In this document: positions 30,942-32,835 of the stretch, piece after piece
How positions within the stretch are numbered: position 1 is the first letter of the stretch
Layout of the letters: each line of letters begins with the position of its first letter
Source: Acidobacteriaceae bacterium
GTDB lineage: Bacteria > Acidobacteriota > Terriglobia > Terriglobales > Acidobacteriaceae
Assembly (NCBI GenBank): GCA_025355385.1
Contig: JANXZS010000009.1
Span: 1-32,835 of the forward strand
Reading direction: 5' to 3'
DNA: 32,835 nucleotides
The notes under the pieces: model-generated
The model's database searches: none
Told to the model about the DNA's origin: nothing
The model's input: only the letters and a program-made list of their open reading frames with translations
Translations under genes and position numbers: made by a program

Positions 30942-32039
30942 TTGGGGTTTGACGCCTTTTTCGGGAATGCGACGACCGTCCGGCACCTGCGCGAAGGGAT
31001 TCGTGCGGGGCGTATCCCTCCAGCTTTGATTCTGGCGGGGCCGAAGGGCTCAGGAAAATACACGCTGGCGCTGATGCTCGCCCAAGCCATCAATTGCCTG
31101 CGCCAGCCCGAATCGGACGGCCTGCCGGATTTCTGCGGTGAGTGCAAGAACTGCCTCCGCATAGCGGAAGCGCAACCGCTTGAGACACGAGTGGAAGAGG
31201 CCGTCACCGCCCGCGAAGACATGCGCGATGCCGACAAAAAAGAGACACGCATCCTGATACAAACGCATCCTGACATTCTGATTGTACCTCCGGATCCACC
31301 GCAGTTGCTCATCAAGATGGGCCAAGTGCGTCGCGTGATCCACAGCATGTACCGCTTCCCCTCGGATGCGCGGCATGCCATCTACATCTTCACCAGTACG
31401 GCGTTTATGAAGGAGGCCGCCAACTCCCTGCTGAAGATCCTTGAGGAGCCGCCGGCATTCGCCAGCATATTTCTGCTTGCGGAAAATACCGGAGAACTAC
31501 TGCCTACCATCCGTTCACGCTCAGTTGTCTATCGTTTGGGAGCGCTGCCGACGGCAAGCCTCGAGGCTCTGCTTTCCCAGCGGCATCCTGAGTGGAAGCC
31601 ACCCCAGCGAGCGCTCGTGGCCCGACTTGCAGAGGGGGCGGTCGGCCGGGCGCTCGGCTTCGATCTGCCGGGCTATGCGGCCAGTCGGCAGGATGCGCTA
31701 ATCATGATTAAAAATGCTCTCACCGAACCCGACCACTCAGTACTTTTCCGAATGACCGAAACCTATCGCGCCGGCGCTGACGGTCAGCAAAAAACCTCGG
31801 CGCTGCTGCGAGCCCTCTCCAGCCTGCTGGAGGATCTAATGCTGCTGCAGTCGGGTGCCGCCAGTCTGGTACGCAACATCGATATGCTGCCGGAACTTAC
31901 CCGGCTCAGCACGGCCATCAGCCTTGGCTGGATCGAGTCCGCAGCACGGGGATTGAATCAGGTAGAAGCCGGTATGCGGCGCAACCTGCTGCGTTCCCTC
32001 TCGCTTGATGCCTTTGCGACGGAACTCGCTTCCTCCTGA
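30942..32039 (+). CDS. holB: DNA polymerase III subunit delta-prime
   Basis: A 365-residue clamp-loader subunit. It shows the AAA+ layout: FFGNATTVRHLREGI, a Walker A GPKGSGK (33-39), four zinc cysteines (Cys52, Cys65, Cys68 and Cys71, around FCGECKNCL), and ANSLLKILEEPP, followed by the sensor segment ending in TIRSRSVVYRL in place of the usual SRC motif. The C-terminal third is the helical oligomerisation collar. Delta-prime helps to load the sliding clamp at the replication fork. An intact Walker A is present, although delta-prime often binds no nucleotide; a DnaX-like identity is unlikely because of length and the missing C-terminal tau part. The start is TTG with AGGGAG upstream. Confidence 0.9.
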   Translation: MGFDAFFGNATTVRHLREGIRAGRIPPALILAGPKGSGKYTLALMLAQAINCLRQPESDGLPDFCGECKNCLRIAEAQPLETRVEEAVTAREDMRDADKKETRILIQTHPDILIVPPDPPQLLIKMGQVRRVIHSMYRFPSDARHAIYIFTSTAFMKEAANSLLKILEEPPAFASIFLLAENTGELLPTIRSRSVVYRLGALPTASLEALLSQRHPEWKPPQRALVARLAEGAVGRALGFDLPGYAASRQDALIMIKNALTEPDHSVLFRMTETYRAGADGQQKTSALLRALSSLLEDLMLLQSGAASLVRNIDMLPELTRLSTAISLGWIESAARGLNQVEAGMRRNLLRSLSLDAFATELASS

Positions 32040-32252: not shown

Positions 32253-32696
32253 ATGCGGAATCTAGGCCCACTCACGTCCCCGGCGGCAAAGCAGCTTCGC
32301 CTCCCCAGCAACGGATCCGTCTCCGAGAAGCCCAAGGGTCGTGTATCCGTACCCCCGCCCAACCTCGGACCACGCAGGCTGGTCAGCCCGATCATGCCCG
32401 AACGGGTCGTCGGTATTAAGAGATTTGTGCGGCGGGAATCCTCTCCTATGCTGACCCACCAGATGGCGCTCACAAGCCCGGCCTGGCACGACGCGTCCCA
32501 TGCAGAAGCGTTTTATTTTCAGAAGCAAATGCAGTCGCAAACGCCGATGGTCTTCGTTCTGGAAGATGGAGAGCGTATCGAGGGCTGTATCGAATGGTAC
32601 GACCACAACGTGATCAAGGTACGAAATAGCGGTAGGACACTCATTTATAAGTCGGGCATCAAGTATCTCTACAAGGCCAACGAGGTTCAGCCCTGA
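32253..32696 (+). CDS. Hfq-like (Sm-fold) RNA-binding protein with N-terminal extension
   Basis: A 147-residue protein. Residues about 86-142 resemble Hfq: FQKQMQSQTPMVFVLEDGE followed by a Gly-containing strand and YDHNVIKVRN (Sm1), then LIYKSGIKYLY (Sm2). The Sm2 His of canonical Hfq (YKHA) is Ser here. Hfq forms hexameric rings that pair small RNAs with mRNAs. The first 65-85 residues are basic and proline-rich, with no match known to me; their codons have the same high third-position GC as the Hfq part, which suggests they are translated. An internal ATG at 32448 would give 82 residues, the normal Hfq length, so a shorter product is possible. Neither start has a strong Shine-Dalgarno. It lies 213 bases after holB on the same strand. 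Confidence 0.72.
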   Translation: MRNLGPLTSPAAKQLRLPSNGSVSEKPKGRVSVPPPNLGPRRLVSPIMPERVVGIKRFVRRESSPMLTHQMALTSPAWHDASHAEAFYFQKQMQSQTPMVFVLEDGERIEGCIEWYDHNVIKVRNSGRTLIYKSGIKYLYKANEVQP

Positions 32697-32710: not shown

Positions 32711-32835
32711 CTATTTAGCTGCCTTTTGCAGTCGATCGCGGATCGCGACGCCAATGCCCGTCGCCACCGGTAACGGGCATAAGATCACTGCTACACCAGC
32801 TTCGTCCAACTGTCGAAGTCCGGAAAATAAGCGGT
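32711..32835 (-). CDS. Sua5/TsaC-type threonylcarbamoyl-AMP synthase, C-terminus (cut by right edge)
   Basis: The minus strand carries an open frame of about 41 codons ending at TAG (32713-32711). Its residues GLRQLDEAGVAVILCPLP and GIGVAIRDRLQKAAK match the end of the Sua5 C-terminal domain, where a 'LR.LD..g.d.i...P...G.G.Ai.dRL.kAA' pattern is usual. Sua5 enzymes make threonylcarbamoyl-AMP for the t6A tRNA modification. Only the tail is visible, so the catalytic domain cannot be checked. Confidence 0.65.
   Translation of the reverse strand, partial: RLFSGLRQLDEAGVAVILCPLPVATGIGVAIRDRLQKAAK

Follow-up and report, generated by a model that had tools for sequence, protein, structure and literature searches.

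A gene at positions 32,253 to 32,696 of the forward strand encodes an Hfq-like Sm protein with a motif-bearing N-terminal tail, which is probably a member of a separate and undescribed branch of the Hfq family in Acidobacteriota; the label RKLIRP-Hfq was coined for it in this analysis. The Sm fold, the distinct grouping among Hfq-like proteins, the tail motif, the signal of selection and the replaced RNA-contact residues are computed observations. The window, that is the whole stretch of 32,835 nucleotides analysed, is contig C30 of an Acidobacteriaceae genome of 4.63 Mb in 321 contigs. The gene starts with ATG, codes for 147 amino acids, includes the stop codon in its span, and was delimited by its open reading frame, the Pfam Hfq score and the presence of relatives at the same place after holB. 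The latter gene (DNA polymerase III delta'; PF13177, 112.6 bits) lies upstream on the same strand at 30,942 to 32,039, and on the reverse strand the gene is met by the 3' end of a convergent Sua5 gene (threonylcarbamoyl-AMP synthase; PF03481 Sua5_C, 41.4 bits), which is cut by the contig end and whose coordinates, 32,711 to 32,835, were taken by eye from the sequence. A promoter and terminator scan found none.

The comparisons were made with two sets of relatives. The near set consists of 43 distinct proteins, including that of the window, collected by a family search and by a scan of genome contigs, with the incomplete loci L023, L041 and L055, the second paralog L002, the window duplicate L003 and identical proteins left aside; its starts were chosen by hand by the analyst. 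The deep set comprises 40 loci under 37 other family codes, picked by the analyst from the listed, stronger profile matches, with starts likewise analyst-chosen, mostly as the nearest start before the motif.

Residues 94-145 of the window protein match the Pfam Hfq family PF17209 with 27.3 bits (28.7 bits when the genome was scanned) at a gathering cut-off of 27 bits, under which two relatives fall (L034 at 25.5 and L088 at 19.5 bits). Every one of the 40 deep members matches this family with an E value of at most 0.01. The score is 26.5 bits for Hfq_1 (cut-off 27), 24.5 bits for the NCBIfam Hfq equivalog TIGR02383, far under its cut-off of 61.7, and 21.3 bits for NF047718, the cyanobacterial Hfq-related family, under the cut-off of 52; the Pfam and NCBIfam matches span the Sm domain and not the tail motif. 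In the AlphaFold model of the window protein, built with 21 sequences, a helix at residues 83-95 is followed by five strands to residue 141, so that the Sm/Hfq fold occupies residues 83-141 (32,499 to 32,675, forward strand), and residues 1-80 have a pLDDT of 49-61 per block of ten. All 50 PDB matches at E 0.001 or better are Hfq entries; another list of 30 PDB matches likewise consists of Hfq proteins, one of which, entered as Asl2047, is an Hfq of Anabaena. For the short relative L051, a model built with 19 sequences reaches a pLDDT of 95-97 over residues 41-90, its Sm domain, with the motif disordered in the monomer, and matches Hfq chains with Z 12.4 (3hfo_B, 65 aligned, 1.8 Å; 3rer_F, 61 aligned, 0.7 Å). 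As modelled, the window protein is of the Hfq-type Sm fold, with an N-terminal helix and a five-stranded barrel, which agrees with the Hfq-like identity proposed for it by the initial annotation. Some near relatives (L035, L039, L037, L024 and L031) have as many as about 17 extra residues inserted in the Sm loop, close to position 48 of E. coli Hfq.

The genome contains three PF17209 matches, namely a canonical Hfq on contig C45 (100 bits, FKHA), a paralog on C69 (32.9 bits, YKQQI) and the window gene. A tree was computed from 65 Sm-core columns, few in number, with a midpoint root and a bootstrap that did not settle; in it one branch (96/99) has the 83 family members together on one side, and another (100/100) sets apart the 25 canonical Acidobacteriota Hfq proteins, with the window protein (row L004) inside the 83-member group beside L005. 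The second paralog, represented by seven tree rows, falls on the family's side without forming one group. Its copy in the present genome (locus L002, C69:1-2035, open reading frame 296-646) shares this side of the tree with the family but has no motif and carries YKQQI as its Sm2 sequence; the motif may nevertheless predate the C69-type paralog, because the kin L146 and L147 in other lineages begin with MRKLIRP. The C69 gene directly precedes a gene which by eye resembles an inositol monophosphatase.

A profile of 42 family sequences found matches in 263 of the 396 sampled genomes of the phylum (E 0.001), some of which are other paralogs without the motif, and canonical Hfq over the TIGR02383 cut-off was present in 182 of the 396. 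Thus, at least 81 genomes (263 minus 182, with which the listed genomes agree) combine a profile match with no Hfq over the cut-off, while those lacking any canonical Hfq are maybe fewer, because the canonical-looking L178 lies just under it at 60.3 bits. In genus g105, the listed genomes match the family at E about 1e-33 and match TIGR02383 only weakly (E about 5e-4). Among the matches listed, genus g34 has no profile match, and a canonical Hfq is present in those of its genomes that are listed; within genus g31, the gene is found in G127 and G147 and is missing from G031, G094, G165 and G179. In eight genomes of these two genera that keep canonical Hfq, the open reading frames after holB showed no relative of the family, and in five of the eight the gene next after holB is Sua5 (by reading, one of them Pfam-checked), as would be expected in the window if the gene were taken out; genus g34 and part of g31, within the taxonomic family of the window, therefore offer natural knock-outs for comparison. 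G034 gave one more match to TIGR02383, a weak one (E 8e-4). A scan of genome contigs with short exact peptides of the window gave 22 loci, whose titles all name Acidobacteria or a taxon within them; the cultivable soil members Paracidobacterium acidisoli and Granulicella are among the sources of these relatives. A search for relatives on mobile elements gave no phage match, and the plasmid matches were only four Paracoccus records at 29-32% identity, one annotated as hfq and three without a feature.

The disordered basic tail, delimited by low pLDDT, charge and selection, covers residues 1-82 (32,253 to 32,498, forward strand) and has a net charge of +9, which bears out the basic extension of 65-85 residues described earlier; the mean tail charge is +3.4 in the 43 near and +4.9 in the 40 deep members. 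In an ungapped comparison with L005 of the same genus, codons 1-82 show 57% amino-acid identity, substitutions of 21, 23 and 40 by codon position (chi-square p 0.02) and NG86 estimates of dN 0.31 and dS 1.14, with dN/dS about 0.27, and codons 83-147 show 88% identity with substitutions of 5, 5 and 31, that is 31 of 41 in the third position; NG86 gave no dS for codons 83-147 and no value for two tail sub-ranges. The pattern indicates that the tail is under selection as a protein, in line with the initial annotation, which had regarded the extension as coding. Its conservation among relatives had also been raised there, and this holds in part: a motif of 6-13 residues is kept phylum-wide, but the surrounding sequence is variable and the extension is not kept whole, its length in the near set ranging from 33 to 120 residues.

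The start at 32,253 lines up with the starts of the other 42 near relatives, which gives it weak support, because those starts were analyst-chosen. A second, standard-length product had been suggested from the internal ATG of Met66 (32,448 to 32,450, forward strand), a residue that is Met in only 3 of the 43 aligned near proteins, that of the window among them. Met48 is likewise Met in 3/43 and Met71 in 6/43, and the poor conservation of all three points to the long form as the conserved one. The production of two proteins from one gene was accordingly rejected as a conserved feature, a statement that applies to the family rather than to this species alone. Of the outcomes named by the initial annotation as contrary to its reading, an unconserved extension with a start only at 32,448 and a protein without the Sm fold, neither was borne out.

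A motif of the general form R-[KRQ]-L-[IVF]-x-[PTS], in many cases RKLIRPxL, occurs in the tails of 42 of the 43 near and 39 of the 40 deep members, as compared with at most two matches to this general form in shuffled tails (1000 rounds), and in 42/43 and 36/40, respectively, when P is required. The strict form R[KR]L[IVF]R is found in 41 of the 43 near tails, with a median start at residue 42, and in 39 of the 40 deep tails, where in 31 of the 39 it begins within residue 4. The near consensus reads G-P-R-K-L-[VI]-R-P-x-L-P (R41 in 43/43, L43 in 42/43, P46 in 43/43), and the deep consensus continues as RKLIRP[SNT]LxE[IVL]KE. The window copy, GPRRLVSPIMPE, was placed from the column counts of 43 aligned sequences at residues 39-50 (32,367 to 32,402, forward strand); its RRLVSP agrees with R-[KRQ]-L-[IVF]-x-P, and at position 45, which is Arg in 41/43 near members, it has Ser (32,385 to 32,387), either a lineage change or a sequencing error.

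The near relatives of the window protein have extra residues ahead of the motif. Of the 40 deep members, 20 lack any further in-frame ATG, GTG or TTG codon ahead of the chosen start; because 16 of these 20 have the motif within residue 4, the N-terminal position is likely the original one. The linker between the motif and the Sm domain spans 26-65 residues in deep members and 26-87 overall. Selection bias in the deep set was checked with 26 loci from 24 genomes with weak profile matches, picked by eye: R[KRQ]L[IVF]xP was present in 19/26 (11 of the 19 reading R[KR]LIKP by hand count), the strict form in 4/26 and neither form in 7/26. By reading, some of these seven are truncated where a contig ends, and others belong to different paralogs. 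Since the strict form is scarce and the general form with P common in these loci, the core of the motif is taken as RKL[IV]-x-P. A search for the motif in other proteins of the same genome with a degenerate 17-base DNA pattern was uninformative, with three matches versus eight for the reversed control.

The RNA-contact positions were numbered from the alignment with E. coli Hfq and counted over the 83 family members and 25 canonical Acidobacteriota Hfq proteins. The contact residues of Hfq, as given in the portions of PMC5379935 consulted, are Gln8, Phe42, Lys56 and His57 on the proximal face, Asn13, Arg16, Arg17 and Phe39 on the rim, and Tyr25 on the distal face. The window protein has Glu, Asn, Lys and Ser at the proximal positions, with one of the four kept, Gln, Met, Gln and Tyr at the rim positions, with none of the four kept, and Val102 at the distal position. 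The stretch Y55-K56-H57-A58 of E. coli corresponds to Y132-K133-S134-G135 (YKSG), with Lys133-Ser134 at 32,649 to 32,654 of the forward strand standing for Lys56-His57, and the initial annotation was therefore right in reading the key His of YKHA as Ser. It had missed that the genome has three Hfq-like genes with a separate canonical Hfq, and that many contact positions are changed.

On the proximal face of the family, Gln8 is replaced by Glu in 83/83, Lys56 is kept in 83/83, and position 42 is Asn in 39/83, aromatic (Phe or Tyr) in 4/83 and non-aromatic in the other 79. His57 is kept in 25/40 deep, 0/43 near and 25/25 canonical proteins; its loss is derived, and it is one among many changed RNA-contact positions. 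On the rim, Arg16 is found in 0/83, position 17 is Gln or Asn in 63/83 and position 39 is Tyr in 80/83; on the distal side, Tyr25 is found in 0/83 and position 30 is Glu in 74/83, and residues 22-37 carry a net negative charge in all 83 family members versus a net positive one in 25/25 canonical proteins. Each of the 25 canonical Hfq proteins from this phylum has Gln8, Arg16 and His57, with an aromatic residue at position 42. Asp40, Lys56 and Gly34 are retained in 83/83 of the family, which has acquired the near-invariant Trp38 in place of Ser38 (83/83), Lys or Arg60 (83/83) and Tyr61 (82/83). Annealing activity tracks the number of rim arginines, according to the parts of PMC6561178 seen, and from this relation and the loss of rim arginines poor annealing would be predicted for the family. 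Given the invariant Lys56 and the His57 of 25/40 deep members, some proximal RNA binding may remain, and the basic motif and tail could make direct contact with RNA.

The gene is preceded on the same strand by holB in 47 of 53 near loci (39 of the 43 distinct proteins). In the deep loci, pdxA lies 3' of the gene in 19/40, and the genes found mostly upstream are holB (8 loci), PSP1/RicT (7), mfd, named from its sequence (6, one downstream) and peptidyl-prolyl isomerases (5 and 4), all these counts being lower bounds, for the clustering missed diverged genes and split even the family itself (21/40). Pfam confirmed PSP1 in four deep loci and PdxA, holB and rotamase in one each. The neighbours pdxA, holB and PSP1/RicT are all housekeeping genes; they vary by lineage and indicate no single pathway. 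The gene stands directly after PSP1/RicT in L088, L102, L104 and L127, the last with the order tmk-holB-ricT-hfq-like-pdxA, where tmk was likewise named from its sequence. RicT works with RNase Y in Firmicutes, and gene adjacency makes it a possible partner candidate.

Among the known systems, canonical Hfq (PF17209, TIGR02383) shares with the family the Sm fold with its N-terminal helix and five strands and the conserved Asp40, Lys56 and Gly34, but the family differs in its motif-bearing N-terminal tail, in the replacement of most RNA-contact residues and in its separate tree group. The cyanobacterial Hfq-related protein (NF047718; 3hfo, 3hfn) is also a diverged Hfq, and 3hfo belongs to the best structural matches, at the same score as others, whereas the window protein scores under the NF047718 cut-off. 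The Hfq of Synechocystis is recruited by a protein partner, PilB1, as stated in the part of PMC4390875 covered, which is a precedent for a protein-recruited Hfq. Of the Hfq proteins with long C-terminal tails, Burkholderia Hfq2, as described in passages of PMC7074383, resembles the family in carrying a disordered tail on an Sm core and in being encoded by an additional Hfq gene whose tail is variable; however, that tail is C-terminal with glycine-rich repeats, in contrast to an N-terminal one with a conserved linear motif. The Hfq tree in PMC7074383 marks an Acidobacteria group, for which the passages covered describe no tail. No description of the RKLIRP motif or of the family was found in the open-access literature searched, including passages of PMC7074383, PMC9029176 and PMC6561178. 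The fold is a known one, and the branch, the motif and their combination appear undescribed.

The preferred reading, to which we give about even chances, is that of an old Acidobacteriota Sm branch in which the Sm domain would still form a ring, as its fold family suggests, and the ring would present one tail motif per subunit to a conserved putative partner, for which a protein active in RNA metabolism or translation is the likeliest choice, the Hfq-like protein thereby acting as a multivalent adaptor rather than a canonical sRNA-mRNA matchmaker. Docking by the motif is proposed because a short conserved peptide stands in a disordered, variable tail, and the disorder of the motif in the L051 monomer model fits the expectation for a docking peptide. 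The strongest rival, direct RNA binding by the tail, may hold together with motif docking. The protein would then be a true RNA chaperone of altered specificity, with the tail and motif as extra RNA-binding arms and RNA ends held in the proximal pore, a possibility that we entertain tentatively. In its favour are the basic tails, +9 in the window protein, the invariant Lys56 and the His57 of 25/40 deep members, and the protein may replace Hfq in some of the at least 81 of 396 genomes that match the profile but show no Hfq above the cut-off of TIGR02383. However, the Glu at position 8 in 83/83, the scarcity of an aromatic residue 42 (4/83), the absence of Arg16 and Tyr25 and the acidic distal segment argue against it, and if the arm acted by charge alone, the order Arg-Lys-Leu-Ile-x-Pro would presumably be unnecessary.

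An autoinhibitory arm, the basic motif docking on its own ring, for example on the acidic distal segment, is unlikely in our judgement, although the tail and residues 22-37 are oppositely charged: the linker varies from 26 to 87 residues, and the motif is disordered in the monomer models, in which a between-subunit site would be invisible. Such tail-core autoinhibition has a precedent in Caulobacter and E. coli Hfq, where, as reported in the portions of PMC6561178 consulted, an acidic C-terminal tip packs on the basic rim, of which the arrangement considered here would be the mirror image. A paralog in decay, with no separate function, is a very improbable reading of the gene, since its Sm domain is 88% identical to that of the nearest relative, 31 of the 41 substitutions there fall in the third codon position, and the family is widely conserved in the phylum; the points in favour of decay are that eight genomes from two genera, all with canonical Hfq, have no profile match and showed no relative after holB, and that the window copy deviates at Arg45.

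Carried further, the reading of the protein as a multivalent adaptor leads to a speculative picture, which we regard as rather doubtful in its entirety: in an early Acidobacteriota ancestor, a second Sm ring would have lost its RNA-matching surfaces, and its roughly six RKLIRP peptides would recruit a single conserved housekeeping machine, be it the ribosome, an RNase or a factor like RicT, so that where canonical Hfq is absent, the sole Hfq-like protein would have taken over post-transcriptional control by protein docking. Among the RNA-binding rings of bacteria Hfq serves as the model, and discussion of how it varies has usually centred on the C-terminus. If the proposed role is true, the Hfq ring would have been reused as a scaffold, in a phylum-wide paralog with an N-terminal docking-like motif and rewritten RNA surfaces, and the Acidobacteriota, whose post-transcriptional machinery is hardly studied in the literature searched, would gain a testable candidate with a core motif of six residues.
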